DNA from: Falsibacillus albus
GTDB taxonomy: Bacteria; Bacillota; Bacilli; Bacillales; DSM-25281
Direction: 5' to 3'
Assembly (NCBI RefSeq): GCF_003668575.1
Contig: NZ_RCVZ01000009.1
Coordinates: forward strand, 1 to 64,000
DNA length: 64,000 nt
The position numbers and the translations under genes were made by a program. Every line of letters begins with the position of its first letter. Position 1 is the first letter of the stretch. The notes below the pieces were generated by a model. The model was not told the origin of the DNA and did not search any database. It saw only the letters and a list, made by a program, of their open reading frames with translations. Positions 2,178-40,763 of the stretch are shown piece after piece.

Positions 2178-3059
2178 ATGGAGCAAAAATATTCAGTTTT
2201 TCTGGCGGTGGCGGAAGAAAGGAGTTTTTCAAGGGCGGCGGATTCGTTGTTCATTTCCCAGCCAGCTGTGAGCCAATATGTTGCAGGGCTTGAAAAGGAG
2301 CTTGGGGCGGCATTGATCATCCGGGATCATAAAAAACTTCGACTTACGAAGGCAGGGAAGATTTTGTATGAGTACGTGGTCGAATTAAAGCAGGCACATA
2401 AAGAGATGAATCAAAAAATCCAAGGTATCCTCAACATACCTGCTGGGGAGCTCAGGATTGGCGCCAGTTATACATTCGGCGAGTACATCCTTCCGCATAC
2501 GATCTCGATTTTAATGGAGAAGTTTCCAAATATACACCCGACCATCACGATCGGAAACACGACGGAAATCGCGGCCAAGCTCCACGATGATCAATTGGAT
2601 ATCGGAATCGTCGAAGGGATGAACCTACATCAAGATCTCACCGTAATTAAATTGACAGAGGACGAAATGTACATTGCAGCGGGGAAAGATCACTCGTTGG
2701 CAGGAAAGACACGTATCACTGCGAAAGAACTGGAACACGAACGCTGGATCATACGCGAAAAAGGCTCAGGCACAAGAGAGGCGACCGATCAATTCCTAAA
2801 AAGCCAGGGGATAAAACCACTAGAATCCATGGAATGCGGCAGCACCCAGATCATCAAAGAATCCGTAGAAGCAGGGCTCGGCATCAGCCTGATCTCGCGC
2901 TGGGCCATCCGAAAAGAATACGACATGAAGCTACTGCGCATATTGAATCATAAAGACACCCCCGTCAAAAGGGACTTCTCAATCATCCGGCAGTCGGAAA
3001 AAGACTCTTCAAAAGCAATCGAAGTGTTTCAAGAAGTGCTGTTGGAATACTTTCTATGA
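2178..3059 (+). CDS. LysR-type transcriptional regulator (YeiE/CysL-like)
   Basis: 293 residues. The N-terminal winged helix (residues ~2-60, with RAADSLFISQPAVSQYVAGL) is followed by a periplasmic-binding-like effector domain. ATG 2178 is chosen over the upstream ATGs at 2160 and 2169 because GGAAGGG at 2162-2168 is 9 bases before it. It is divergent from the YeiH-type exporter, with about 115 bp between the chosen starts, and presumably activates it, as YeiE-type regulators do. The sulfur-related regulator CysL belongs to the same subfamily; which effector is used cannot be read from the sequence. Confidence 0.85.
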   Translation: MEQKYSVFLAVAEERSFSRAADSLFISQPAVSQYVAGLEKELGAALIIRDHKKLRLTKAGKILYEYVVELKQAHKEMNQKIQGILNIPAGELRIGASYTFGEYILPHTISILMEKFPNIHPTITIGNTTEIAAKLHDDQLDIGIVEGMNLHQDLTVIKLTEDEMYIAAGKDHSLAGKTRITAKELEHERWIIREKGSGTREATDQFLKSQGIKPLESMECGSTQIIKESVEAGLGISLISRWAIRKEYDMKLLRILNHKDTPVKRDFSIIRQSEKDSSKAIEVFQEVLLEYFL

Positions 3060-3092
3060 GGGGATATTTAAGTGCGGAAAAGTTAGTGGTTT

Positions 3093-3373
3093 GGCGCAAG
3101 TATTTTGATTCCAGCGCAAAAAACCCGTAGTTAGGCGCAAAAAACTTAATTTAGGCGCAAAAAATCTAAGTTGTGCGCAAAAAATCAGATTAAGGCGCAA
3201 AAAACGATGTTGCCTGCTGTCCTCATAGTCGGATGAATCTGCGCGGTAGTCCGAAACCGGCGTTAAGCGCATAAAATCTGAAAATCGCGCAAAAAACTGG
3301 AGTTAGGCGCAAAAATCTTAATTTAGGCGCAAAAAATCTGAGTTGCGCGCAATGAATCAGATTAATACGCAAA
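3093..3373. repeat. non-coding array with GCGCAAAAA core, 20-21 bp step
   Basis: GCGC cores occur at 3094, 3114, 3135, 3155, 3175 and 3195, and again at 3267, 3287, 3307, 3327 and 3347, each followed in most cases by an A-tract of 5-6 and then a variable ~10 bases. A 60-bp non-repeat interruption lies at about 3205-3262. No gene is seen in this 346-bp gap. Confidence 0.8.
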
Positions 3374-3407
3374 AAACGCTTCGCCCCAATGGGGCGAAGC
3401 GTTTTTT
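3371..3407. terminator. bidirectional intrinsic terminator
   Basis: Perfect 17-bp arms (AAAAAACGCTTCGCCCC and its complement) around an AAT loop, so both strands end in a T-run. It serves the LysR gene and the convergent MFS gene, whose stop codon is inside the hairpin. Confidence 0.9.
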
Positions 3408-4692
3408 ATTGAGCACTCGCTGTTTCTGTTTTGTCTTTTTCAAACCGACGGAACATCAGCCAATAGATGGCGGCGCTGAGCACGGCGAGGAAAGTCAGCG
3501 AAAGGAAGGTCCATTCATAGCCAAATAGGGTCGTAAGCGGGATGGACAATGGTGCGAGCGTCCGGCCGATCGTGAACCGAAGGCTGGCCGCGGCGAAATA
3601 TTGTCCCCTCATGTGTTCAGGCGCGAGCTTCGAGATGAAGCTTTGCTGGATGCCGACTGTCATCAGCTCTGCAAAGGTGAAGAAGGCCATTGCGATGATC
3701 ATTCCCCAGACGGTGCCGAATTGCCCCATCATGAAGATGGCGAGTCCGTATACGATGGAAGAGATCATAAAGACGTTCCGTTCGTAATACTTTGTCATCC
3801 ATTTTGTCACAAAAACGGTAAAAAGTGCGACGAGGAGGCCGTTTTCAGATAGGACAAAGCCGAATATCTGCTCACTCCTTAGATTCAGCGACCAATCACC
3901 GAAATGGAGGAGCGGCGCCTCTTTAATCGTTTCTTTTATATAAACAGGTATCAGCAGGTCGAGCTGCATGAAGGTCTGTGCAGCCAGGACGCCGGCGATG
4001 ATGAATAATAGAAAGGTCTTGTCGCGGATGATAACGCGGTAGTCCTTCACTTGATTCCATAATGCTTCATGCCATTTCAGTTTTTGGATCGCTTCTGCGC
4101 CGTCATTGTTGACCAAAAGAGGTGCGGTTTCTCGTGTCCATTTGAAGAGCATGAAGGCAAGCAGCATGCATACTAATCCGGATACAGCCAATAATTGAAA
4201 ACGATAGTGCACATAAAATATTCCGCCGAGCATCGGTCCGAGGACGACAGCAATGTTGATCGAAGTGTAGAAGACGGCGAAAACGTTGCTCCGCTCCTTT
4301 TCATCGACGACATCTGCGACCATTGCCTGACTGGCGGGCCAATAGACCGATCCGCACATGCCGGCAAAAGTGAAGCAAATGAAGCCGAGCGTCGCTGATT
4401 CAAGCCAAGGCGAATTGGCAAAGCCGAATACTAAAAAGGCCACACCTTGCCCGAATGCAGACAGCACCATCATTTTCTTCCTGCCGTATCGATCCGCATA
4501 ATAGCCTCCCAGCAGGTTGGCCAGCACGGAGAAGACCTGAGAGCCGATCAGCAAGATGCCGGCTTTTTCTTTTCCGAATGCTTCTGTAAAATAAATCGTC
4601 AAAAACGGGAAGAACATCCAAAATGTCAAATTCAACAGCGCTTCCCCGAATAGACGGACTTTCAAATTTCGATCCCAATCCCTGATTCTCAT
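3406..4692 (-). CDS. MFS transporter (MdtH/multidrug-efflux type)
   Basis: 428 residues with about 12 membrane helices and the MFS loop 2-3 motif GGYYADRYGRKKMM, then the domain-C type run near residues 130-150. The start at 4692 (MRIRDWDRN) follows AAGGGGTGAAAC; the longer open frame upstream to 4845 has no ribosome binding site and runs into a palindromic repeat. The sequence resembles drug:proton antiporters of the DHA1 group. It stands alone without an adjacent regulator, so the substrate cannot be named. Confidence 0.8.
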   Translation of the reverse strand: MRIRDWDRNLKVRLFGEALLNLTFWMFFPFLTIYFTEAFGKEKAGILLIGSQVFSVLANLLGGYYADRYGRKKMMVLSAFGQGVAFLVFGFANSPWLESATLGFICFTFAGMCGSVYWPASQAMVADVVDEKERSNVFAVFYTSINIAVVLGPMLGGIFYVHYRFQLLAVSGLVCMLLAFMLFKWTRETAPLLVNNDGAEAIQKLKWHEALWNQVKDYRVIIRDKTFLLFIIAGVLAAQTFMQLDLLIPVYIKETIKEAPLLHFGDWSLNLRSEQIFGFVLSENGLLVALFTVFVTKWMTKYYERNVFMISSIVYGLAIFMMGQFGTVWGMIIAMAFFTFAELMTVGIQQSFISKLAPEHMRGQYFAAASLRFTIGRTLAPLSIPLTTLFGYEWTFLSLTFLAVLSAAIYWLMFRRFEKDKTETASAQ

Positions 4693-4800
4693 AGCCGTTT
4701 CACCCCTTTGATGCTTCATAACCTTCCATATCATACTCCTCAAAAGGGTCCGGCACAAGGTCAAATTGACAAATTTCGCAAAATTAAAAACAAATAAAAA

Positions 4801-4842
4801 GGGTGGCCCCCTGGTGCCTGTCACCAGAGGGGCCACCCCTAT
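4801..4842. terminator. palindromic terminator with GGTGCCTGTCACC core
   Basis: GGGTGGCCCC / GGGGCCACCC arms flank TGGTGCCTGTCACCA. It lies 3' of the aminopeptidase gene and is a member of a family recurring across the window (15830, 25281, 25632, 30077, 38999, 39585, 49427). Confidence 0.8.
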
Positions 4843-4853
4843 CATTCATGAAA

Positions 4854-6086
4854 TTAGAATGCCCAGTCTCCGTTGCGGAATACTGGCTCAGAGCTGCCAT
4901 CCTTTGTGATTCCGTCGATGTCCATTTCAGAGGAGCCGATCATGAAATCAACGTGTGTGATGCTGTCGTTGAGTCCATTCTTTTCAAGCTCTTCCTTGGA
5001 CATCTTTTTGCCGCCTTCGATGCAGAACGCATATGCGCTTCCGATCGCCAAGTGGTTGGAGGCATTTTCATCGAACAGCGTGTTGTAGAACAAGATGTTC
5101 GACTGTGAAATCGGCGAGTTGAATGGAACCAATGCGACTTCGCCTAAGTAGTGTGAGCCTTCATCCGTTTCGACAAGGCGCTTCAATGTTTCTTCGCCTT
5201 CTTCTGCTTTTACATCGACAATACGTCCATTTTCAAATGTAAGGGAGAAGTTGTCGATGATGTTTCCGCCGTAGCTCAAAGGCTTCGTGCTGGAAACTGT
5301 TCCATTGACACCTGTCTTAAGAGGAACCGTGAAGACTTCCTCTGTCGGCATATTTGCCATGAATTCATTGTCATCGGAGTTGATGCTGCCTGCTCCAACC
5401 CAAAGGTGCCCTTCAGGAAGCTCGATCGTCAAATCTGTGCCAGGCGCTTTATAATGAAGTTTGTGATAATTTTTCCCGTTCAAATAGTCAACTTTTTCAT
5501 GAAGGGAAGCGTCATGGTCTTTCCATGCTTGAACCGGATCTTCCAAATCAGAACGCGTCGCTTTGAAAATGGCATCCCAAAGCTTATCTACTGCTTCGTT
5601 TGCATCTGCTTCAGGGAATACCTTTTTCGCCCAGTTTTCAGAAGGGACGGCAACCACTGTCCAGCTGACTTTATCGGATTGTATGTATTGGCGGTATTTA
5701 TTCAGGGCAGTACCAGCTGCCTTTTGGAAAGCGGCGATTCTTTCTCCTTCTACTCCTTTTAAAAGGTCCGGGCTTGAAGAAATGATCGACATGAAAGCTG
5801 CACCTTTTTCAGCTAAGTCTTCCATTTCCCTTGCACGCCATTCAGGAAATTCATCGAATGCTTCGCGCGGCGCCATTTCATATTTCATACGGCTGATCTG
5901 ATCATCGCCCCAGTTGACGTTCACATGCTTAGCGCCTGCTTCATAGGCCTTTTTTACGACCAAGCGAACGAACTCGGCTGCATCGATCGTTGCATTGACG
6001 ACCAATGTTTGGTTCTTTTGAATATTTACGCCGACCTTAACGGCCAATTCGGCGTATCGTTCCATTTTATCCTGGAAAGTTGTCAT
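4854..6086 (-). CDS. ampS: M29-family aminopeptidase (AmpS type)
   Basis: 410 residues, the usual length of the thermophilic-metalloprotease (M29) family. The N-terminal domain begins MTTFQDKMERYAELAVKVG and the C-terminal half carries the dinuclear-metal region (PTEEVF, LFDENASNHLAIG, THVDFMIGS), supplying the expected Glu, His and Asp ligands. It removes N-terminal residues from peptides in the cytoplasm. The start is supported by AAAAAGGAGAATTCTAT just upstream. It is monocistronic, ends at a palindromic terminator, and nothing in the neighbourhood points to a special substrate. Confidence 0.9.
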   Translation of the reverse strand: MTTFQDKMERYAELAVKVGVNIQKNQTLVVNATIDAAEFVRLVVKKAYEAGAKHVNVNWGDDQISRMKYEMAPREAFDEFPEWRAREMEDLAEKGAAFMSIISSSPDLLKGVEGERIAAFQKAAGTALNKYRQYIQSDKVSWTVVAVPSENWAKKVFPEADANEAVDKLWDAIFKATRSDLEDPVQAWKDHDASLHEKVDYLNGKNYHKLHYKAPGTDLTIELPEGHLWVGAGSINSDDNEFMANMPTEEVFTVPLKTGVNGTVSSTKPLSYGGNIIDNFSLTFENGRIVDVKAEEGEETLKRLVETDEGSHYLGEVALVPFNSPISQSNILFYNTLFDENASNHLAIGSAYAFCIEGGKKMSKEELEKNGLNDSITHVDFMIGSSEMDIDGITKDGSSEPVFRNGDWAF

Positions 6087-6210
6087 ATAGAATTCTCCTT
6101 TTTTTCAGAATGTTCTATTCTATTTTATCAGGGCTGGGAGTGGAATGGAATTGTTTTACGATTTAGAATGAGGGAAAGAGCAAATAATCTAGTATAAAAG
6201 GAGTGTATGC

Positions 6211-6564
6211 ATGTTTCAGATGAAACGGATTTATGAAGCTGCAGAGGAATCAGATGGGAAAAGAGTCCTCACCGATCGGCTTTGGCCGAGGGGGGTCTCT
6301 AAAGAAAAAGCTAAGCTGGACGAGTGGATGAAGGAAATCGCACCAAGTACGGAACTTAGGAAATCTTTCTGTCATGATCCGGAAAAATTTGATCAGTTCA
6401 GGGAAAAATATAGAGAAGAACTACAATCGGAAGAAAAAGCAGAAGCGGTTGAATCGCTCAAACGAAAAGGGGCTGAAGGAAACGTGACGCTTCTGTACGG
6501 TGCGAAAGATGAAACGTACAACCATGCTATCGTACTCAAAGAATTTTTAGAAGGAAAAAGCTGA
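6211..6564 (+). CDS. DUF488 family protein (YeaO-like)
   Basis: 117 residues with the family hallmarks VLTDRLWPRGVSKEKAKLDE near the N-terminus and LYGAKDETYNHAIVL near the C-terminus. The ribosome binding site AAAGGAGTG is 8 bases before ATG 6211. Members are small soluble proteins of unproven function, often beside stress or NO genes; here it converges on nsrR and shares its terminator. No enzymatic activity can be claimed. Confidence 0.85.
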   Translation: MFQMKRIYEAAEESDGKRVLTDRLWPRGVSKEKAKLDEWMKEIAPSTELRKSFCHDPEKFDQFREKYREELQSEEKAEAVESLKRKGAEGNVTLLYGAKDETYNHAIVLKEFLEGKS

Positions 6565-6592
6565 TCTTTGAACGATAAAGGATCAGCTTTTT
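6556..6592. terminator. bidirectional terminator between DUF488 gene and nsrR
   Basis: AAAAGCTGATC arm and its complement GATCAGCTTTT flank a 15-base loop, with T-runs on both strands. It overlaps the last codons of both convergent genes. Confidence 0.75.
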
Positions 6593-7023
6593 GATTGAAA
6601 ATATTGACGATAGGCGTCTGGATCGGCTATCAAATCGGCCAATGTATATTCGTCCAGGACGGCTAAATATGACTGCAAGGCTTTATGAAGCACATGCTTC
6701 AATCCGCACACAGGCGTGATCACGCATTGGTTGTGCTCGCGGTCGAAGCATTCCACAAGGTGGAAGTCTTCCTCGGTCTTCCGTACGGTCGAACCGATGT
6801 TGATCTGGTCAGGGGATTTTCCCAGACGGATGCCGCCGTTTCTGCCGCGGATGGTTTCGACCAGCCCCATCTTGCCCAATTCATAGGTCACCTTCATTAG
6901 ATGGTTTTTTGAAATCCCATATGCCTCCGCTATATGCTTAATATTGGCCAATTCGCCTTTTGGAAGCGTAGCTAAATATAATAAAACCCTCAAAGAGTAA
7001 TCGGAATAATTGGTTAATCTCAT
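6583..7023 (-). CDS. nsrR: NO-sensing Rrf2-family repressor NsrR
   Basis: 146 residues, the same length as B. subtilis NsrR. The winged helix (residues 1-60, YGISKNHLMKVTYELGKMG) is followed by the three iron-sulfur ligands Cys92, Cys100 and Cys106 in ECFDREHNQCVITPVC, matching the B. subtilis numbering. It carries a [4Fe-4S] cluster that is destroyed by nitric oxide, lifting repression. ATG 7023 (MRLTNYSDYS) is preferred over GTG 7032 because AAAGGTG is at the right distance. It is divergent from hmp with two matching operators between them, so it almost certainly represses hmp and perhaps itself. Confidence 0.93.
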   Translation of the reverse strand: MRLTNYSDYSLRVLLYLATLPKGELANIKHIAEAYGISKNHLMKVTYELGKMGLVETIRGRNGGIRLGKSPDQINIGSTVRKTEEDFHLVECFDREHNQCVITPVCGLKHVLHKALQSYLAVLDEYTLADLIADPDAYRQYFQSKS

Positions 7024-7050
7024 TATCATCACCTTTACCTATTATAAGCA

Positions 7051-7081
7051 TTGTGACAAATCAATGTCTAAATTTGTGACA
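7051..7081. promoter_or_regulatory. two TTGTGACA motifs (possible ResD sites)
   Basis: TTGTGACA at 7051-7058 and TTTGTGACA at 7073-7081. ResD of B. subtilis binds TTTGTGAAT-like sequences upstream of hmp and nasD, so these are plausible activator sites; the match is partial. Confidence 0.35.
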
Positions 7082-7090
7082 GATTATTTA

Positions 7091-7114
7091 AAGATATATT
7101 TTAAATATTGCTTT
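7091..7114. promoter_or_regulatory. NsrR operator 1
   Basis: AAGATATATTTTAAATATTG followed by CTTT: an A+T-rich imperfect dyad of the kind bound by NsrR, located between nsrR and hmp. Confidence 0.7.
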
Positions 7115-7137
7115 AAACCTGCTAGAGGAGTAATTTA

Positions 7138-7161
7138 AAGATGTATTCAAAATACTACTTT
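7138..7161. promoter_or_regulatory. NsrR operator 2
   Basis: AAGATGTATTCAAAATACTA followed by CTTT is very close to the general NsrR consensus (GATGYATTTNAAATRCATY). It starts 38 bp before the hmp start codon, and its centre is 47 bp from that of operator 1. Confidence 0.8.
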
Positions 7162-7175
7162 AAGGAGCGATTCAA

Positions 7176-8399
7176 ATGTTATCCCAAAAGACAATTGACA
7201 TCGTCAAATCGACTGCGCCTGTTTTGGAAGTGAAAGGTCAAGAAATTACAACCTGCTTTTATCAATTAATGTTTAACAATCACCCTGAACTTTTAAATAT
7301 CTTTAACCATGCCAACCAATCGAAGGGACGTCAACAAACGGCCTTGGCCAATACAGTATATGCAGCTGCCAAATACATCGATCAGCTTGAGGTGCTGCTG
7401 CCGGCGGTCAAACAAATTGCCCATAAGCATAGAAGCTTGGCCGTCAAGCCTGAGCATTATCCGATCGTCGGTGAATTTTTGCTGAAAGCGATCAAAGAAG
7501 TGCTCGGAGACGCGGCAACGGAAGACATCATCAACGCTTGGGCAGAAGCATATGGTGAAATTGCCAACGTCTTCATCAGCGTCGAAAAGGGGATGTACAC
7601 AGAAGCCGAAGAACAGGAGGGCGGCTGGAAGGACTTCAAGGAGTTCGTCGTAAGCGACAAAGTGAGGGAAAGCATGACGATCACTTCCTTCTACTTAAAG
7701 CCAGCAGATGGAGGTAAAGTAACGAGCTTTTTACCAGGGCAATACATCACCATCCAGGTCCAGATTCCAGGGGAAACTTACACGCTTAACCGCCAGTACA
7801 GCTTGTCCTGTGCGCCAGGAAACGAATATTACCGCATTTCCGTGAAGCGTGAAACGGAATGCATGCCTGAAGGGAAAGTATCCAACTATCTTCATGATGA
7901 AGTGAATATTGGCGATATGATAAAAGTAAGTGCTCCTGCCGGCGACTTCGTCTTGAATAGGGAAGAAAATTCACCGATTGCCTTGATCAGCGGCGGCGTC
8001 GGCATCACCCCGATGATGAGCATGCTCCAAACCATGGTGAAAAATGAATCCAAACGGGATGTTGCATTCATCCACGCAACGAGGAACGTAGATGTCCACG
8101 CATTCTTGGAAGAAGTACAGGAAGCCTGCCAGCAGCTTGAAAACGGCCGTTCCTACTTTGGCTATGAAGCAAACGAAGCAGAAAAGCAAGCCGGTGATTT
8201 TTCCGGCTACATCCAAAAAGATTTCCTGCAAAAAGTGATCCTATCGTCTGAAACAAGATGCTACGTCTGCGGGCCGAAACCGTTCATGGAAGCCGTCATC
8301 CGCCAGCTCAAAGAAATCGGCATCCCGGAAGACCGGATCCACTATGAATTCTTCGGCCCGGCCATGGTGCTTGATACAGAACCGGTGGAAGTAAAATAA
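7176..8399 (+). CDS. hmp: flavohemoglobin (nitric oxide dioxygenase)
   Basis: 407 residues, typical for Hmp. The globin domain spans about residues 1-140 (MLSQKTIDIVKSTAPVLEVKG; proximal His in KHRSLAVKPEHY). The FAD domain covers about 150-260, with the flavin-binding run LNRQYSLS. The NAD(P) domain begins at GGVGITPMMSML and ends with YVCGPKPFMEAV and HYEFFGP. It converts NO and O2 to nitrate using NAD(P)H in the cytoplasm. The ribosome binding site AAGGAG is 8 bases before ATG 7176. Divergent nsrR and two operators show NO-responsive control. Confidence 0.97.
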   Translation: MLSQKTIDIVKSTAPVLEVKGQEITTCFYQLMFNNHPELLNIFNHANQSKGRQQTALANTVYAAAKYIDQLEVLLPAVKQIAHKHRSLAVKPEHYPIVGEFLLKAIKEVLGDAATEDIINAWAEAYGEIANVFISVEKGMYTEAEEQEGGWKDFKEFVVSDKVRESMTITSFYLKPADGGKVTSFLPGQYITIQVQIPGETYTLNRQYSLSCAPGNEYYRISVKRETECMPEGKVSNYLHDEVNIGDMIKVSAPAGDFVLNREENSPIALISGGVGITPMMSMLQTMVKNESKRDVAFIHATRNVDVHAFLEEVQEACQQLENGRSYFGYEANEAEKQAGDFSGYIQKDFLQKVILSSETRCYVCGPKPFMEAVIRQLKEIGIPEDRIHYEFFGPAMVLDTEPVEVK

Positions 8400-8405
8400 A
8401 AATAG

Positions 8406-8446
8406 GGAAAAGCTGATGTGTGAGATGCATCGGCTTTTTTTATTGT
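8406..8446 (+). terminator. terminator of hmp
   Basis: AAAGCTGATG / CATCGGCTTT stem (one G-U) followed by a T-run. Confidence 0.75.
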
Positions 8447-8498
8447 GAGAAGACTTTATTCGTAAAGCTAGTTTTAATAAATATCTAACAGTGTGAAA

Positions 8499-8669
8499 GG
8501 TTGATTTCCGCGGAAGGATGCTCGCTTTCTGAGGGGGCTAACAGGATGTGAGGTCGTTCGATGTTGGCACACGACGTACCGAACTTAATCGAATATCCGT
8601 CTTATATTGCGGGGTCTCACCCTGCCCGCAGATCCCCCCGGAGTCTCTCACCTTCAGCTCCAATCAACA
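8499..8669. repeat. dispersed GC-rich imperfect palindrome, long variant
   Basis: Begins GGTTGATTTCCGCGG and ends with CAGCTCCAATCAAC, with GCTCGCTTTC and GGGGTCTCACC blocks inside. The same family is at 13469, 15938, 20126, 36351 and, degraded, 46560. This copy is about 45 bases longer than the 36351 copy because the central part is replaced by unrelated sequence (~8544-8608). The remainder of the 469-bp gap 8400-8868 holds only terminators. Confidence 0.8.
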
Positions 8670-8785
8670 TTGGAGGATGAATTTTTAATATAAAACAGTC
8701 GCTATTACATAGGCAACTCTACCACAAATCCCGCTCAAACCCGCTTATGTTATGCAATTCGTCGCTGCATCCCTCTCCAATCAAA

Positions 8786-8815
8786 AACGGTCATCAATGA
8801 AATTGATGACCGTCA
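8786..8815 (-). terminator. terminator of the small basic-acidic protein gene
   Basis: Perfect stem ACGGTCATCAAT / ATTGATGACCGT with a 3-base loop; read on the minus strand it is followed by TTTTTG. Confidence 0.8.
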
Positions 8816-8868
8816 GACAAATTGACTCCATCCCGATTCTGCCCAGTTGAACCGGGGTGGTCCCAGTT

Positions 8869-9027
8869 TTATTCCTCTTCTTCGACCCGATTTTTGAACG
8901 CTTCTTGAGTGGTGATGAATTCTTCGTCCTCGATGCGTTCTTTCGTATGTTTTTCAGCGATGCTGTTCTCAGGGAAATTGCCCGGATGTCCTTTTTCTTT
9001 ATGGTTGAATCCTTTTCCTCGCGCCAT
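8869..9027 (-). CDS. small hydrophilic protein of unknown function
   Basis: 52 residues starting MARGKGFNHKEKGHPG, basic at the N-terminus and very acidic at the C-terminus (RIEDEE, RVEEEE). AAGGGAG lies 8 bases before ATG 9027, which is why this start is preferred over the upstream ATGs at 9057 and 9042. The composition resembles small spore-associated or stress proteins of bacilli (YfhD-like), but I cannot assign a family. It has its own perfect terminator and is convergent with nothing, so it is probably a monocistronic gene. Confidence 0.65.
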   Translation of the reverse strand: MARGKGFNHKEKGHPGNFPENSIAEKHTKERIEDEEFITTQEAFKNRVEEEE

Positions 9028-9079
9028 GCTGTTCACTCCCTTCATCACTTTACACATATCTTTTCCAAGTTCGGCGTAA

Positions 9080-10009
9080 TTATTTGTCTGGTTGGCGATC
9101 GTTGAAGACCTTTTTCACATTACGGAAAAACAATGATTGTGCACTCCATTTTGCAAACTTGTCTGGAATCAACAGCTGCTCAGCGGCGCTTTCGGCTGAG
9201 ATTGCGTCGCCTGCCTGGATCATATGCTCAATCAATTCCTTTAAATGCTGAATGTCTTCTTTACCGCCGACTCCACCGTGGCCAGGAACGGCGCAAGTAA
9301 ATGGAAGCTTGTTCAACTCGTCCAGCACTCGGTTCCAGCGGCGATAGTTTCCTTCTTGGAAGGATGGGAAGCTTTCGACGAACAGCAAGTCGCCTGCAAA
9401 AACAACTTTGTCATCCGGCAGCCAAACGACGGTGTCCGATATCGAATGGGCGCTGCCGAAATGAAGAAGTTCCAATGTCCGCGTGCTGCCAGCGATGGTC
9501 AACTTGTCCTCAAACGTGACATCCGGGAGGCGCAGGCTGAAATCATGGATCGTTTTGGCGATTTCCTCGACGAGCGTGATGCTGGATCTCAGCTCGCTGC
9601 GCTTTTCTTCATTTTTTTCCGTTTCCAATTGCCCTGTCAGCATGGAGAGGTAAGCTGATTCGTTCTCGATTTGCATCTTGACCTGCGGCATGATCCGTTC
9701 CTTCATGGCCTCATAGGTCGAAGGGGTGCTGATGATCGCGGCTTCATCAAACAGTTGATTGCCCCTGACATGATCGCCGTGGCAATGCGTCGTCGCGACA
9801 TATTTGATCGGCTTTCCGATCAAGGCTTGGGCTGCGCTTTTCAAATCAGCCGCCGCTTGCAGTGTCATCATCGTATCGACCACAACAGTAAAGCCGCCCA
9901 TATCAATGATGCCGGCATTGCCCAGTGCGCCTCTTCCCGAATCGATTGCCGCGAATATGCCATCTGCAATTTCCTTTAGCTTAAAGTGTTCTGAGTAAAA
10001 TGTTTTCAA
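9080..10009 (-). CDS. metallo-beta-lactamase-fold hydrolase
   Basis: About 309 residues. The metal-binding signature TTHCHGDHVRGNQ follows an N-terminal region ADGIFAAIDSGRGALGNAG, and later His and Asp ligands are in HFGSAHSISDTVVWLP with FAGDLLF and VPGHGG. The fold binds two metals, usually zinc. A TTG at 10009 with AAAAGGTG 9 bases upstream gives MKTFYSEHF; a GTG at 10021 is the alternative start. The family covers lactonases, glyoxalase II-like and other hydrolases; the substrate cannot be read here. The helical insert at residues ~120-170 (MLTGQLETEKNEEKR) distinguishes it from classic beta-lactamases. Confidence 0.85.
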   Translation of the reverse strand: MKTFYSEHFKLKEIADGIFAAIDSGRGALGNAGIIDMGGFTVVVDTMMTLQAAADLKSAAQALIGKPIKYVATTHCHGDHVRGNQLFDEAAIISTPSTYEAMKERIMPQVKMQIENESAYLSMLTGQLETEKNEEKRSELRSSITLVEEIAKTIHDFSLRLPDVTFEDKLTIAGSTRTLELLHFGSAHSISDTVVWLPDDKVVFAGDLLFVESFPSFQEGNYRRWNRVLDELNKLPFTCAVPGHGGVGGKEDIQHLKELIEHMIQAGDAISAESAAEQLLIPDKFAKWSAQSLFFRNVKKVFNDRQPDK

Positions 10010-10184
10010 AGATATCCACACCTTTTCTAAAAAAATCGTAATGGTGAATACATTCTTTTAAAAAGGCAAAAACACCTATCAGAAATTGTTAATTTTTTGA
10101 CAAATTTAGAAACGTTGAGAGCGGTTCCATTGCCTTCGAATAAGGTATAATAAGGATAATCATTGACAAGAGGGGTGCTGTTGA

Positions 10185-10559
10185 ATGGATTATTTCGATA
10201 TTATATCCGAACAAAGAATTCGCGAAGCCCATAAGAACGGTGAATTTGACAACCTGCCCGGGATGGGGAAACCGCTGCCGAAGGATGAATTCGCCAATGT
10301 CCCCCAAGAAATCCGCATGGCCTACCGATTGATGAAGAACGCAGGCTACTCCCCTGAAGAATCGACCCTCAGACAAGAGATGATGACCATCGAAAGCCTC
10401 ATCGCTCAATGCGATGACGAAGTCGAAAAAGAAGACCTCACCAAGCAGCTCAACGAGAAGATGCTCAAATTCAACCAATTCATGTCCAAACGAAAAAAGA
10501 ACACAAACTCTTCGTTATTCAAAAACTACGAGAACAAGATCGAAAAGAAGCTATTGTAA
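10185..10559 (+). CDS. DUF1992 (DnaJ-homologue subfamily C member 28 type) protein
   Basis: 124 residues beginning MDYFDIISEQRIREAHKNGEFDNLPGMGKPL, which is the conserved DUF1992 block (residues ~5-70). No J-domain HPD motif is present; the name comes from eukaryotic proteins where this block follows a J domain. The C-terminal part is a charged helix. ATG 10185 is preceded by AGAGGGGTG. It is cytosolic and of unknown role, widespread in bacilli. A weak terminator follows at 10566. Confidence 0.85.
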   Translation: MDYFDIISEQRIREAHKNGEFDNLPGMGKPLPKDEFANVPQEIRMAYRLMKNAGYSPEESTLRQEMMTIESLIAQCDDEVEKEDLTKQLNEKMLKFNQFMSKRKKNTNSSLFKNYENKIEKKLL

Positions 10560-10565
10560 ATTTAT

Positions 10566-10600
10566 TAAGGAATCCATCATTGATGGGTTCTTTTTTTATG
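10566..10600 (+). terminator. terminator of DUF1992 gene
   Basis: GGAATCCATC / GATGGGTTC stem with a T7 run. Confidence 0.65.
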
Positions 10601-10689
10601 GATTTACATGTTTCGCTGCTTATGCGGTGAGGACAGAAGGAAGATATCTGCGAAAAAAGCGAAATATCCATTATTCTACACCTTTCGTC

Positions 10690-10792
10690 AAATTTCGCCC
10701 CCGCCGTTCGCCACCTTCTTCCCGCCGCCGTCCGCCGCCGCCAATTCTCCAGCAGCCCCTCTCCCCCCCCCAGCAATCCTTCCCCATCATCC
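10690..10792. other. C-rich low-complexity tract with a 9-C homopolymer
   Basis: The gap between the DUF1992 gene and the lgt-like operon (10560-10875) contains a strongly asymmetric stretch: multiple CCGCCG units, then CCCCTCTC followed by nine C (10763-10771). The minus strand is correspondingly G-rich. Base composition is unlike anything else in the window. No coding frame with a ribosome binding site was found in it. Confidence 0.7.
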
Positions 10793-10875
10793 GAACAAAA
10801 TTTCTCGATTTTTCAGATAAATAAACAGTGATTTGTGTTAATATTTTCCTATACATATGAGTTGAGGTGTTGAAA

Positions 10876-11646
10876 ATGGATTTTCCCGTTTGGATCCATC
10901 TGGGCGGATTCCGTTTCCATCCGCACCTGGTGTTTGAAACACTCTCTTATTTCATCGGATTCAGGGTGTATCTTTGGACAAGGAATAAAGAGAGAATCCC
11001 GTATGACACGATGCTGGCGGTGCTGGTGGGGGCGATTGTCGGGGCGGCGCTCGGGTCGAAGCTGCTGTACTGGCTGGAAGATCCGATCAAAACCATCCAT
11101 TCTCTCACGGACCTCCCCTATTTAATGGAAGGGAAGACGATCGTCGGCGGATTGCTTGGAGGGTTGATCGGGGTCGAGGCAGCGAAAAAAATGGTCGGAT
11201 GGAAAAAATCGACCGGCGATGAGTTTGTGCTTCCGCTCATTGTAGGAATGTCGATCGGCCGGGTCGGATGCTTTTTGACCGGGCTGGATGACCATACATA
11301 CGGAACCGAAACGAAGCTGCCATTTGGGGTCGATTTCGGCGATGGGGTGCCGCGGCATCCGACGCAGCTTTATGAAATTGTATTTCTCTTCCTGCTGGCC
11401 GCCTTCGTCATTGGGCTGCGCAAGTTGAATAAATCGAAGCCGTGGGAAGGATTTGAATTTCAGCTTTTCATGGCGGGCTATTTGTTGTTCAGATTGTTGA
11501 TTGATTTTATCAAACCGACGCCGCATGTGTACTTCGGCTTGAACAATATTCAACTTGCGGCCATTGCCGGGTTGATCTACTACGGACAATTAATGTACAA
11601 GAAAGCGAGGAAACATGATGCCGAATCGAAGCTATCTGTTCTATGA
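10876..11646 (+). CDS. Lgt-family (prolipoprotein diacylglyceryl transferase-like) membrane protein, diverged
   Basis: 256 residues with about seven membrane segments. It keeps the family skeleton: GKTIVGGLLGG (86-96), GRVGCFLTG (128-136) and HPTQLYE (161-167). Canonical Lgt has His in the first block (the essential HGG) and Asn after GRxG (GRxGNFxNxE); here these are Val and Cys/Thr and the Glu is missing, so ordinary lipoprotein modification is doubtful. Start ATG 10876 follows GAGGTG at 6 bases. The 3' end overlaps the radical SAM gene by 29 bp. The fold suggests binding of a glycerophospholipid; the reaction is unknown. Confidence 0.75.
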   Translation: MDFPVWIHLGGFRFHPHLVFETLSYFIGFRVYLWTRNKERIPYDTMLAVLVGAIVGAALGSKLLYWLEDPIKTIHSLTDLPYLMEGKTIVGGLLGGLIGVEAAKKMVGWKKSTGDEFVLPLIVGMSIGRVGCFLTGLDDHTYGTETKLPFGVDFGDGVPRHPTQLYEIVFLFLLAAFVIGLRKLNKSKPWEGFEFQLFMAGYLLFRLLIDFIKPTPHVYFGLNNIQLAAIAGLIYYGQLMYKKARKHDAESKLSVL

Positions 11647-13033
11647 ATTGACGAATAGCATTTGTTCCAAATGTTTGCGAAAAGTGGAAGCGAAAATCAT
11701 CCTGGAAAATGACTGTGTGTACATGGTGAAGCATTGCCATGAGCATGGCAGGGAGCGGGTGCTCATCTCCACCGATATCGAGTACTACAAGAAATGCCGT
11801 GAATTCATCAAACCATCCGAAATGCCGTACCGCTTCAATACGCCGATCAAATATGGGTGTCCTTATGATTGCGGGATCTGCCCGGACCACGAGCAGCACA
11901 GCTGTTTGACCTTGATTGAAGTGACGGATCAATGCAACCTCCAATGTCCGATCTGCTATGCAGAATCATCCCCGCAGAAGAAGCGCTGGAGGTCACTGGA
12001 GGAAATCGAGTTCATGCTCGATAGCTTAGTAAAAAATGAACATGAGGTCGATATCGTCCAAATCAGCGGCGGCGAGCCGACGATCCATCCGCAGTTCTTT
12101 GACATTCTCGATTTGGCGAAAACGAAACCGATCAAGCATATCATGGTCAATACAAACGGGCTCCGGATTGCCCAGGACCGTTCGTTTGCCAAAAGGCTTG
12201 CCGAGTATCTACCTGGATTCGAACTATATCTCCAGTTTGACAGCTTTGAAAAAGAAGCCTTGAAGGAGCTTCGTGGCGTCGATTTGCGGGAAACAAGGAG
12301 GAAGGCGATCGAGCACCTTAATGAATTCAACATTTCTACGACATTGGTGGTAACGTTGAAAAAAGGACTCAATGATCAGGAGGTCGGAAAAATCATTGAA
12401 TACGGCCTTTCGCAAAAAGCGGTCAGGGGCGTCACGTTCCAGCCGATTCAGGCAGCAGGGAGGCTTGAGGACTTCGATCCTGCAACCGATCGACTCACCC
12501 TCAGCGAGGTGCGGCAGATGATCATCGATCAATCCGATGTGTTCAACAGTGAGGATATCATTCCGGTCCCGTGCCACCCTGACTGCCTGGCGATGGGGTA
12601 TGCGCTGAAGACGAACGGCAAAGTGACGCCGCTCACCGGGATGATCGATCCGAAGGTCCTGCTCGAAGGAGAGCGGAATACGATCGTCTTTGAACAGGAT
12701 GAGGAGATCAAGGATAAAATCTTCAAGCTGTTCAGCCTGAACCATTCGCCGCTATCCTCGTCTATGTCGCTGAAGGATCTGCTTTGCTGCCTTCCGAAGG
12801 TGTCCGCTCCGAACATTTCCTACGACAATGTGTTCAGGGTGATCATCATGCAATTTTTGGATGCTTATAATTTTGATATACGTTCCGTGAAAAAATCATG
12901 TGTCCACATCGCGCATCCGGACGGAAAGATCATCCCATTCGATACGTACAACCTGTTTTACAGGGACGATAAGGTGAAGCGTCTGGAAGAAATCCGCGCA
13001 GAAATGACGGGGGTGAATCATGAGCGAGTATAA
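11618..13033 (+). CDS. radical SAM enzyme of the Tes/MJ0619-like (COG1964) group
   Basis: 471 residues. An N-terminal Cys-rich region (Cys16, Cys19, Cys33, Cys40) precedes GCPYDCGICP-DHEQHSC (Cys81, 85, 88, 96). The radical SAM cluster motif CNLQCPIC (106, 110, 113) and GGEP (151-154) follow. A conserved VPCHPDCLAM block lies in the C-terminal half and adds possible cluster ligands. This layout is that of archaeal tetraether lipid synthase MJ0619 and its bacterial relatives, which join lipid chains carbon to carbon. ATG 11618 is 7 bases after GCGAGG; ATG 11615 is an alternative. It overlaps genes on both sides. Lipid chemistry is inferred from family and the Lgt-like neighbour. Confidence 0.8.
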   Translation: MPNRSYLFYELTNSICSKCLRKVEAKIILENDCVYMVKHCHEHGRERVLISTDIEYYKKCREFIKPSEMPYRFNTPIKYGCPYDCGICPDHEQHSCLTLIEVTDQCNLQCPICYAESSPQKKRWRSLEEIEFMLDSLVKNEHEVDIVQISGGEPTIHPQFFDILDLAKTKPIKHIMVNTNGLRIAQDRSFAKRLAEYLPGFELYLQFDSFEKEALKELRGVDLRETRRKAIEHLNEFNISTTLVVTLKKGLNDQEVGKIIEYGLSQKAVRGVTFQPIQAAGRLEDFDPATDRLTLSEVRQMIIDQSDVFNSEDIIPVPCHPDCLAMGYALKTNGKVTPLTGMIDPKVLLEGERNTIVFEQDEEIKDKIFKLFSLNHSPLSSSMSLKDLLCCLPKVSAPNISYDNVFRVIIMQFLDAYNFDIRSVKKSCVHIAHPDGKIIPFDTYNLFYRDDKVKRLEEIRAEMTGVNHERV

Positions 13034-13301
13034 GGAGGAGGAAATCGAGCCTAAACGGAAAGATACGCTTGCTTCCGGGATCGGCTTGACGGTGCTGCTT
13101 CATTTGATTTTGATTGTCTTTCCGGTGGCCTATTTTTTCATCGGCATTGTCCAGATTGTCTATATCATCCCAGCGGTTGCCATTGCGTACCGTAAGGGCT
13201 ACCCGAGAAGGGGAAAAGGGCTCATCATCGGGGCGGGCATCACGTTCCTATTGAACAGCGCCTGCTTTGGGATCGTGATGTCGGGCAGCCTTGGTGGATG
13301 A
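13020..13301 (+). CDS. small membrane protein, third gene of the lgt-like/radical SAM operon
   Basis: 93 residues: an acidic/basic N-terminus (MSEYKEEEIEPKRK), then two to three hydrophobic segments (about 19-58 and 68-90) separated by a basic loop YRKGYPRRGKG. ATG 13020 lies inside the end of the radical SAM gene (14-bp overlap) with GGGGGTG upstream, so the two are translationally coupled. No family is recognised. Its constant linkage, if confirmed elsewhere, would suggest a membrane partner or anchor for the cytosolic enzyme. Confidence 0.7.
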   Translation: MSEYKEEEIEPKRKDTLASGIGLTVLLHLILIVFPVAYFFIGIVQIVYIIPAVAIAYRKGYPRRGKGLIIGAGITFLLNSACFGIVMSGSLGG

Positions 13302-13692
13302 GAACGCGGGTGGCTCTTGATTGGGAGGGATTTTGCGGGCATTATAAAAGAAATGGGTCTTTTCGCAATAATTGCTGTTTTTAGATTTTCTTGTAAACGA
13401 TTCATCATTTGATTTTTTCTCCATTCGCAAGGCTGTTTTCAAGAGGCTCTTTTCGTAAAGTTTGTACAGGTTGATTTCCGAGGAAGGATACTCGCTTTCC
13501 GCTGCAATCAACCACCTAAGATGAAATTTTATCAAAAAAACTATTACTAATAGTAATCTTGGAGAAAAGAGCCATTTATAAAATTTGTTGCAATATATCA
13601 ACGGTTGAGCAAGGTTGATTTTCAAGGTCAGTATGCTCGAACCTGCCGCTGCAGCCAACACAAAAACTCATGGGATAGAAAGGAGATTTTTT
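13302..13692. other. 391-bp gap with degenerate repeats
   Basis: Holds a partial dispersed palindrome at 13469-13513 (GGTTGATTTCCGAGGAAGGA ... GCAATCAAC), a weaker one at 13610-13660, and the facing sequences GAGGCTCTTTTCGTAAAG (13444) and GGAGAAAAGAGCC (13561). No supported gene; the long minus-strand frame across it is built from repeats. Confidence 0.6.
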
Positions 13693-14043
13693 ATGAAAAT
13701 AGAGGGTTTTGGAGGAATCTTTTGGAGGACTAAAAATCTAGAGGATATCAAAAGCTGGTACAGTAAAGTCCTGAATATTGAAATTGAGAATTGGAATGGA
13801 GCCATCCTTACGCCACAACCTGGCAATGAAACCGTCTTTTCCTTCTTCACTGAAGATGACCCATATTTTCCAACAAACCAACAAGTGATGTTGAACTTTC
13901 AAGTTGAAAATTTGGACGACAGTATTAAACATCTAGAAGAAATCGGTGTTCCCATTGTGATGGAGAAGGCAGTTGATGAATATGGAAAGTTTATTTGGAT
14001 TGAAGATCCAGAGGGAAGACGTATAGAGCTTTGGGAGAAGTAA
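13693..14043 (+). CDS. VOC-superfamily (glyoxalase/bleomycin-resistance fold) protein
   Basis: 116 residues with the paired beta-alpha-beta modules of the VOC fold: FGGIFWRTKNLEDIKSWYSKV at the start and NFQVENLDDSIKHLEEIGVP then IWIEDPEGRRIELWE at the end. ATG 13693 follows AAAGGAG at 7 bases. The family includes dioxygenases, lyases and drug-binding proteins; metal ligands are not complete enough to choose. It is monocistronic, with a good terminator at 14073. Confidence 0.85.
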   Translation: MKIEGFGGIFWRTKNLEDIKSWYSKVLNIEIENWNGAILTPQPGNETVFSFFTEDDPYFPTNQQVMLNFQVENLDDSIKHLEEIGVPIVMEKAVDEYGKFIWIEDPEGRRIELWEK

Positions 14044-39638: not shown

Positions 39639-40763
39639 TTATATCAATGTTTTTCTCTTGCTGAAGTCGACTTCAGGGTAGTATGCATCCTTCACGAGGA
39701 CGTTGGGGCCCAGGCATTTGACGGATGGGCAGTGGCAGTTGAGGTCTTTTGCCAGTTTGGAGTCCATCCATTTATTGAATACATCCGGAAGCGAATCGCG
39801 TACGACGTTGCCGAGTGCAGGCGTATCGCCGAAGTCCGTGACGATGACATCTCCGTTGAAGATGTTCACATTCAAACGGGACCGGCCGTCAGGATCGTTG
39901 CGGACGGTGACGTTCTTTTCGTTATAAAGTCTTGAAAGCAGTTCGCGGTCTTCGGCATTGCTGCTGCAAGGATAGAAAGGAAGCGTTCCGAACAGCATCC
40001 ACACCTCTGGATTGCGGATATCGAGCAGGTGACGGACTGCTGAACGCATTTCATTAAGCGTCAATGTTTCCATCGTCGAAGCGAAGTCACTCGGATACAT
40101 CGGGTGAACTTCATGTCGGGCACATTGCATTTCCTCCGTGATTTGCTTGTGGATTGCCTCCATATGTGGAAGTGTGCGCTTATTCAGCATCGTTTCTGCA
40201 GACACCATCACATTTTCCTTCGCAAGCGCGCGGCTGTTCTCAATCATTGTGTAGAAAAGCTTTTCACGTTGGGCAGGCGTCGGCTTTCGTTCCATCATCG
40301 CAAATCCACCCTCGATGAAATCGTCGATCGTGCCCCAATTGTGGGAAATATGAAGAACGTCCAGAAAAGGTGCGATCTCCAAGTATCTATGTAAATCAAG
40401 CGTCAAATTTGAATTGATCTGAGTACGGACACCGCGCTCATGGGCATACTTTAATAAAGGAAGAACATAATTCTTCACCGACTTCTTGGACAGCATCGGC
40501 TCACCGCCCGTGATGCTCAAGGAACGCAGATGAGGGATTTCTTCCAATCTTGATAAAAGCAGATCAAGCGGCAGTGCATCCGGGTCCTTCGGCTGCAGCG
40601 TATACCCGACTGCACAATGCTCGCATCGCATATTGCACAAAGTCGTCGTGGTAAACTCGACATTCGATAACGTCAGCCGGCCATGCTCCTCCATATCCAT
40701 ATAGGCTTCCCATGGATCATATTCGGTCGTGATTTTTTTTAATTGTGTATCATTAATAGGCAT
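39639..40763 (-). CDS. yfkAB: radical SAM protein YfkAB
   Basis: 374 residues (about 373 in B. subtilis). The cluster motif is CNMRCEHC in TTTLCNMRCEHCAVGY, followed by SITGGEPM, and the C-terminal CHCPSVKCLG gives the CxCxxxxC motif from which the family is named. It is a radical SAM enzyme of unknown substrate, widely conserved in bacilli. ATG 40763 (MPINDTQ) is chosen over 40769 because GAAGGAG needs the longer spacing. Divergent from the SE1561-family gene. Confidence 0.92.
   Translation of the reverse strand: MPINDTQLKKITTEYDPWEAYMDMEEHGRLTLSNVEFTTTTLCNMRCEHCAVGYTLQPKDPDALPLDLLLSRLEEIPHLRSLSITGGEPMLSKKSVKNYVLPLLKYAHERGVRTQINSNLTLDLHRYLEIAPFLDVLHISHNWGTIDDFIEGGFAMMERKPTPAQREKLFYTMIENSRALAKENVMVSAETMLNKRTLPHMEAIHKQITEEMQCARHEVHPMYPSDFASTMETLTLNEMRSAVRHLLDIRNPEVWMLFGTLPFYPCSSNAEDRELLSRLYNEKNVTVRNDPDGRSRLNVNIFNGDVIVTDFGDTPALGNVVRDSLPDVFNKWMDSKLAKDLNCHCPSVKCLGPNVLVKDAYYPEVDFSKRKTLI

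Follow-up and report, generated by a model that had tools for sequence, protein, structure and literature searches.

A three-gene set of an Lgt-like protein, a Tes-like radical SAM protein and a cysteine-tailed membrane protein as a candidate lipid-modifying module in Falsibacillus albus

The archaeal tetraether synthase Tes (also GDGT-MAS; GDGT, glycerol dialkyl glycerol tetraether) is a radical S-adenosylmethionine (SAM) enzyme that takes hydrogen from the end of a lipid chain, the chain being bonded en route to a cluster sulfur. Bacterial phospholipids were bound in its pocket (PMC9433317; this and the other papers named below are cited for individual passages). The C-terminal cluster of Tes probably carries the lipid intermediate. 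Tes alone was sufficient in a methanogen (PMC8941075). Homologues are present in bacteria that are not recognised producers of such lipids (Lloyd et al., PMC9433317), are already in print as possible signs of producers of branched GDGTs (PMC11868695, PMC8941075), and were proposed by Zeng et al. to make iso-diabolic-type lipids (PMC8941075). Such iso-diabolic lipids exist in Bacillota, where a 2026 report attributes them to Mss; the Bacillota strains making membrane-spanning lipids were grown anaerobically, and genomes with Mss and Ger are mainly Clostridia, along with 1 Bacillaceae and 5 Paenibacillaceae species (PMC13274423). Here, a set of three genes from Falsibacillus albus is compared with these systems. 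It lies in a window of 64,000 nucleotides (contig NZ_RCVZ01000009.1 of assembly GCF_003668575.1, positions 1 to 64,000), which is the whole stretch of DNA analysed, and consists of an Lgt-like gene, a gene for a radical SAM protein (RS) and a small gene, together termed the module.

A preliminary description of the window had put the trio forward as a candidate undescribed lipid-modifying system built on a Tes-like enzyme. The folds, two conserved arginines and the gene linkage bear this out, while the identity with Tes does not stand. The module combines known folds in a fixed and apparently undescribed arrangement: among the matches listed in a literature search, with subscription journals and preprints mostly outside its scope, there was no Lgt-like/RS gene pair or Cys-tailed protein.

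Linkage and distribution of the module

The three genes form a genuine set and not a chance neighbourhood. The open reading frames (ORFs) of the window confirm the mutual overlaps given in the preliminary description, with all three genes head to tail on the forward strand. The Lgt-like gene and RS share 32 nt including the stop codon (29 nt without it, or if RS opens at its second Met), and RS and the small gene share 14 nt. A match to RS was patchily present across the order (11/397 genomes) and the class (30/398 genomes), the window's genome being counted in both (cut-offs of E 1e-30 or 1e-40 for RS and E 1e-25 for the Lgt-like protein). All close RS loci (36/36, window included) had the Lgt-like gene immediately upstream in the same orientation, with an overlap between the two genes in 27, and a search for the Lgt-like protein in the class genomes returned 27/398, exactly the 27 with a close RS. 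The remaining three genomes held two distant RS without an Lgt-like gene in the examined flanks and a disrupted RS fragment next to an Lgt of canonical type. In this last locus (L039/L063, genome G446), the fragment carries 2 TGA and 1 TAG in the matched stretch and lies directly downstream of an Lgt with His and Asn kept.

A second, named collection was assembled from six peptide patterns taken from the window protein (80 of 88 confirmed loci kept), and therefore favours close relatives. The Lgt-like gene was upstream in 79 of these 80 loci, with hosts among the Bacillota, Bacteroidota, Omnitrophota and Obscuribacterales, a Chlorobi metagenome-assembled genome (MAG) and a marine archaeal MAG (L175); loci derived from MAGs (e.g. 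L175, L154 and L173) could be mis-binned. The objection that the genes might not be conserved together, raised in the preliminary description, fails because adjacency holds far outside the Bacillaceae. Distances among Lgt-like proteins correlated with those among RS (r = 0.94 for 5460 pairs; r = 0.86 for 3682 close pairs). The P values of the survey counts, 10^-41.8 (hypergeometric) and 5e-46 and 2e-34 (Fisher), treat related genomes as independent and are only descriptive.

Clustering of the ORFs from 25 neighbourhoods recovered RS in 23 loci, the Lgt-like gene in 20 and the small gene in 11, with the next, unnamed cluster in 7. Only these three groups were widely shared, which rules out a larger gene cluster, and chance neighbours are ruled out by the adjacency, the co-occurrence and the counts of Cys tails against controls (below). 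A Persicobacter copy with all three genes was located on a 1.07 Mb plasmid record. In the window, the trio is flanked by a metallo-beta-lactamase-fold gene (9080–10021) and a VOC gene (13690–14043). A sister species keeps the order Hmp, DUF1992, MotA, MotB, MFS, and its 15 kb stretch is without the trio and both flanking genes; a whole-genome search of that species found no RS. As both flanking genes are also missing there, the trio stretch may be a small variable region.

Folds and conserved residues of the two large proteins

RS belongs by fold with Tes. Matches were obtained to the radical SAM domain (PF04055, E 6.7e-25) and to an N-terminal metal ribbon (PF23545, E 3.1e-17), the motifs GCPYDCGICP and CNLQCPIC were both found, and the nearest solved structure was the M. 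jannaschii GDGT-MAS/Tes (E 2.7e-70). An AlphaFold model built from 29 RS sequences (mean pLDDT 76.9, with residues 347–398 of low confidence) placed 7tom and 7tol above everything else in Foldseek (TMq 0.79 and 0.78), and comparison of the model with 7tom gave Z 43.0 (rmsd 2.5, 389 aligned residues), followed by 7tol (Z 42.3) and a next best match at Z 19.5. Ligand positions of the rubredoxin-like, N-terminal cluster and radical SAM sites (Table 1) were kept in 115–116 of 116 module rows, and M412, in the place of the labile Met439 of GDGT-MAS, in 114/116.

The C-terminal region is where RS departs from its relatives. Position 443 was Asp in 103 module rows and Glu in 12, with 1 gap, and was thus acidic in 115 of the 115 readable rows. 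The same position in 56 non-module rows (MJ0619, TrsS-type and other distant proteins) held Cys in 28, Ser in 1 and a gap in 27, most gaps reflecting the split of those proteins over two alignment rows. The C-terminal Cys of Tes and TrsS (of IIPFC) is, judging from its conservation, a probable cluster ligand, and the acidic residue that replaces it suggests that the last metal site of RS differs from that of Tes. Cys391 and Cys392 were invariant (116/116). At the place of Tyr459, constant in archaeal GDGT-MAS, module rows held Ile (n = 111), Phe (n = 4) or a gap (n = 1); GDGT-MAS variants at Tyr459 remain active (PMC9433317) and the residue is therefore not essential. A maximum-likelihood tree with 42 rows (22 from the module) placed module RS in a clade of their own (support 100/100) and grouped MJ0619 with TrsS (100/99).

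Two distant RS from the same phylum (genomes G1055 and G937), both located near an Lgt-like gene (190 and 153 bits, respectively), branched beside the module clade (95/86). The first locus (L178, G1055:C8:19500-38500, 8294–11888) combines the distant RS with its Lgt-like gene, a DUF4395 membrane protein and a small membrane protein, and may possibly represent an older form of the module; its neighbours we take to be genes for nickel/cobalt transport and hydrogenase maturation. The second genome also carries two tandem distant RS paralogues (L180, G937:C39:270000-289000, 2767–9817). The genes preceding them presumably serve fatty-acid synthesis (a ketosynthase, two reductases, an acyl carrier and a dehydratase), and a Tes-type enzyme in a fatty-acid cluster, if so, would be a lead in itself.

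The Lgt-like protein passed the Pfam cut-off for Lgt (PF01790, E 1.2e-24, 87.5 bits against 24.9) and passed none of the seven Lgt models that NCBIfam lists, with scores of 69.5 (cut-off 334) and 43.1 (cut-off 118.9) as the best. For its model (mean pLDDT 87.2), the sole Foldseek match under E 0.001 was E. coli Lgt with phosphatidylglycerol (PG) bound (5azb; Z 14.6, rmsd 4.6, 237 aligned; next best Z 6.1). Structure prediction of both large proteins, proposed in the preliminary description, thus returned GDGT-MAS and E. coli Lgt as best matches, and the Lgt-fold assignment made there holds. Among the residues required in E. coli Lgt, Y26, H103, R143, N146 and R239 were compared, while G154 was not confidently placed. 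Both PG-positioning arginines were retained in every row, and all of Tyr26, His103 and Asn146 were replaced (Table 1); His103 is variable among true Lgts, and N146C is found in distant Lgts, one of them partly functional (PMC13251419). From these replacements, Lgt activity has likely been lost. The same genome also encodes a canonical Lgt (278 bits), in which His, Asn and Tyr are retained, so the Lgt-like gene is not the housekeeping Lgt, and this candidate was rejected. A Bacillus subtilis control genome gave no match to PF01790; B. subtilis has lgt, and the control is possibly incomplete at that locus.

Table 1. Position of the module genes and of their conserved residues in the window
Feature	Position	Strand	Basis
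Lgt-like membrane protein, 256 aa	10876-11646	+	PF01790, Lgt fold; longest frame opens at 10867
Lgt-like His17, place of E. coli Tyr26	10924-10926	+	113 H, 2 gaps of 115 rows; E. coli numbering from a passage of PMC13251419
Lgt-like Val90, place of E. coli His103	11143-11145	+	V 102, M 10, I 3 of 115 rows
Lgt-like Arg129 (= E. coli Arg143, 115/115) to Cys132 (for Asn146, 115/115)	11260-11271	+	Alignment
Lgt-like Arg206 (= E. coli Arg239, 115/115)	11491-11493	+	Alignment
RS, 472 aa, Tes/TrsS superfamily, separate clade	11615-13033	+	ORF, Pfam/NCBIfam profiles, tree, model
Rubredoxin-like metal site C17/C20/C41/H44 of RS	11663-11746	+	PF23545, alignment
N-terminal auxiliary cluster block C82/C86/C89/H92 (GCPYDCGICPDH) of RS	11858-11890	+	Alignment; GDGT-MAS ligands from a passage of PMC9433317
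Radical SAM CX3CX2C motif C107/C111/C114 of RS	11933-11956	+	Pfam, alignment
C-terminal metal-site region of RS: C320, CC391-392, M412 (= Met439 of GDGT-MAS), C429, D443 (Cys in Tes/TrsS)	12572-12943	+	Alignment
Small membrane protein, 93 aa, three hydrophobic helices, third module part	13020-13301	+	ORF, hydropathy count
Last hydrophobic helix of small protein with Cys82 (13263-13265), conserved C-terminal Cys context	13221-13286	+	Alignment, tail survey

Promoter-like sites were no commoner than in shuffles (8 found; shuffled mean, 7.2), and there was no clear conserved regulatory element, the upstream regions being unaligned. A further radical SAM match lies at 40245–40649 of the window, on the reverse strand (E 4.1e-10, in an open frame of 378 aa).

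The small protein and its C-terminal cysteine

The third gene proved more important than first supposed, and an adjacent small protein with a conserved Cys is the new point of this analysis. The preliminary description had listed a 93-residue membrane protein, which a simple hydropathy count supports with three hydrophobic helices, and had overlooked both its conserved C-terminal Cys and the spread of the module to other phyla. A Pfam scan of this protein gave only a sub-threshold match. Counts were based on 107 unique modules (116 loci, 36 surveyed and 80 named, minus 9 sharing an identical 840-base RS stretch), excluding the distant or fragmentary RS loci (L037–L039, TrsS-type and L178–L182). 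An ORF of 45–200 aa with at least two hydrophobic helices directly followed RS in 75/107 modules compared to 14/228 other genes, where control ORFs were the longest open frames, some of which may be spurious. These proteins were chosen only by place and helices, and a Cys occurred within the last 25 residues of 72/75, compared to 3/14 controls. When ORFs on either side were considered, a last helix ending in Cys 4–18 residues from the end was found for 89/107 modules (65 downstream, 24 upstream) and 12/207 controls. An earlier view of the small gene as an accessory confined to Bacillota (27/80 by BLAST) was dropped after these helix and Cys-tail counts.

Outside the Cys tail the protein varies, with three helices in bacilli, two in Flavobacteria-type loci, a zinc finger, or an EF-hand in the archaeal MAG. 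One Paenibacillus/Saccharibacillus group carries the small gene upstream of the Lgt-like gene, and its product has a zinc finger and one helix; small Paenibacillus proteins of this kind, a zinc finger joined to a Cys-ended helix, occur in most of the loci L138–L151, with a B-box (PF00643) in the two scanned against Pfam. The usual tail context among 97 collected small proteins was L-L-x-(A/T/S/G)-(A/I)-C-(F/G)-(G/A), the presence of Cys in 97/97 being mostly by construction as 89 were chosen for it. The stretch 16–32 residues before the Cys was net basic in 89/97 and the tail net basic in 7/97. With a basic stretch preceding the last helix, the positive-inside rule predicts that the Cys faces outward, the side on which Lgt works and has its active cavity (PMC4728403). 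A strict lipobox ([LVI][ASTVI][GAS]C) was ruled out for the small protein, as only 8/97 tails match and the window's own NSAC does not.

Of the 18 modules outside the Cys-tail rule, eight still have an adjacent small membrane protein that misses the helix threshold or does not fit the rule (L017, L019, L021, L022, L026, L028, L130 and L170). L119 has a small-gene BLAST match further away, L105 a match only by a profile built from the same small proteins, and L027 a remnant interrupted by a stop, while the L166 and L176 sequences break off within RS or shortly behind it. One small-protein profile was built from proteins that it then found and, being circular, was not counted as evidence. A profile search found one Cys-tailed small protein in the window's genome.

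Candidate functions and comparison with described systems

The linkage, the folds, the kept and lost residues and the Cys tail are established. From these, a tentative reading is favoured, with a plausibility somewhat short of even, in which a radical module of three parts modifies membrane lipids and the trio is its Bacillota version, with the Lgt-like protein holding a phospholipid and the Cys-tailed protein acting as partner or acceptor. For this reading we infer the lipid substrate, the reaction, the topology and the role of each protein. RS, expected in the cytosol, would generate the 5'-deoxyadenosyl radical and, by analogy with Tes, activate an unreactive C–H in the hydrophobic chain of a phospholipid, the substrate to which an Lgt-fold partner points. 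The Lgt-like protein would grip the phospholipid in the membrane via its two arginines and hand over the phospholipid or its product. A new bond would then run from the activated chain carbon to a second chain or to a thiol, for which the small protein's conserved Cys and the Lgt-like Cys132 are candidates. The small protein, with its Cys near the outer face, would serve the Lgt-like protein as a dedicated partner and might also accept the product.

Several observations weigh against a lipid role of this kind. RS scored highest with TrsS, an NCBIfam family of unassigned function (NF045646, 339.8 bits, under the cut-off of 490), and reached only 292.9 bits with Tes (NF045702), under the cut-off of 450. 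The conserved C-terminal Cys of Tes is absent from the C-terminal region of RS, and the change to Asp/Glu does not track the link to Lgt exactly, because the two distant RS with a nearby Lgt-like gene hold Ser (L093/L178) or Cys (L096/L179) at position 443. Three plasmid relatives of RS (27–38% identity) are each directly followed by a methyltransferase gene, and near them are genes for CcdA, thioredoxin, redoxin, DsrE or a low-molecular-weight phosphatase and not lipid genes, so that the Tes/TrsS superfamily is not uniformly lipid-related. The plasmid loci (L214 on NZ_CP126902.1, L215 and L216) are from a Mycolicibacterium and two haloarchaea. Within the named collection, the Myxococcales MAG locus (L173) lacked an Lgt-like gene in the examined DNA, and no small gene was nearby in L173 or in one family of loci (L008–L011). 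A profile search of the L008–L011 genomes also found no small gene, which is not proof of absence because the same profile missed the known zinc-finger type of G440 and G642. RS should be cytosolic, whereas Lgt acts on the outer side. Lastly, most named module hosts are aerobes or facultative. This sits poorly with the anaerobic growth of the Bacillota strains that make membrane-spanning lipids (PMC13274423).

For the enzyme, the comparison with the preliminary description is mixed: the Tes-like fold and the N-terminal and radical SAM metal layout stood, and the assignment to Tes fell on the cut-off, the separate clade and the altered C-terminal residues. By cut-off, clade and residues, TrsS itself was also ruled out.

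In a special case of the favoured reading, RS would act as Tes or Mss do and couple two (iso-branched) acyl chains at their ends into iso-diabolic-type lipids, with the other two proteins holding lipids. The GDGT-MAS fold and metal layout of RS are consistent with such a membrane-spanning lipid synthase, as are the iso-diabolic lipids of Bacillota, although credited to Mss (PMC13274423), and the proposal of such lipids as products of bacterial Tes homologues (PMC8941075). It is nonetheless unlikely, given that RS lies outside the Tes/TrsS clade and under the Tes cut-off, has Asp/Glu for the conserved C-terminal Cys and Ile/Phe for Tyr459 (though Y459 variants are active), and that Tes needs no partner in a methanogen (PMC8941075).

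Protein lipidation, whereby the Lgt-like protein or RS would attach a lipid to the small protein at its C-terminal Cys (by a thioether or C–S coupling) and yield a lipid-anchored or lipopeptide product, is likewise doubtful. The enrichment of Cys in the last 25 residues over controls, its predicted position on the side of Lgt action (PMC4728403), and a constant Cys tail behind an N-terminal part that varies (B-box zinc finger, EF-hand, two or three helices), as for a substrate, argue for it, and the N146C replacement is known in other Lgts, one partly functional (PMC13251419). On the other hand, a strict lipobox is rare among the tails, all three replaced residues of the Lgt-like protein are required in E. 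coli Lgt, the single such small protein in the window's genome, as far as the profile sees, implies no general tag, and the Cys could have a structural role or form a pair with the Lgt-like Cys132. A fuller form, in which the Lgt-fold protein and the Tes-type RS together attach a phospholipid chain to this Cys, or a membrane-spanning lipid made by coupling, in several bacterial phyla and a marine archaeon, is rather improbable.

The weakest alternative is non-lipid chemistry: RS would act on thiols, selenium or arsenic in the manner of TrsS, and the membrane proteins would serve as transporter or redox relay. The best family score (TrsS, a (seleno)protein family) and the methyltransferase and redox genes beside the plasmid relatives speak for it. 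It is improbable in view of a phospholipid-suggesting Lgt-fold partner, the lack of any gene besides the trio broadly common to the 25 neighbourhoods, and the absence of an Lgt-like gene from about 1.5 kb on each side in all 25 TrsS-type loci (23 over and 2 just under the TrsS cut-off).

The module sets apart one clade of bacterial Tes homologues, which now has a pair of membrane partners and residues diagnostic for it, and the role of bacterial Tes-like enzymes becomes testable in easily grown bacilli. Should the module make membrane-spanning lipids, soil bacilli could be counted among the possible sources of a climate proxy; should it lipidate a protein, the modification would be new; and if it does neither, Tes-based gene surveys should exclude the module clade.

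Compared with described systems, RS shares with Tes/GDGT-MAS (MJ0619; 7tol, 7tom) the fold, the rubredoxin-like site, the N-terminal cluster block, the radical SAM motif and the Met ligand position, and differs in the Asp/Glu for the C-terminal Cys, the invariant CC391-392, the Ile for Tyr459 and the tight link to an Lgt-like gene. TrsS (NF045646) shares the domain order and the highest family score, but has Cys where RS has Asp/Glu, lacks an Lgt-like neighbour in 25/25 loci and falls in a separate clade. Mss, compared by description only, is likewise a radical SAM enzyme of Bacillota with a reported Tes architecture, and its family may overlap with module RS; the passages on Mss make no mention of Lgt (PMC13274423). 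The Lgt-like protein has the fold of E. coli Lgt (5azb) and the equivalents of Arg143 and Arg239, and differs in Tyr26 to His, His103 to Val/Met/Ile and Asn146 to Cys and in failing the NCBIfam cut-offs. Two of these replacements, Y26H and N146C, are shared with second Lgt homologues such as MSMEG_5408 of M. smegmatis (PMC13251419).

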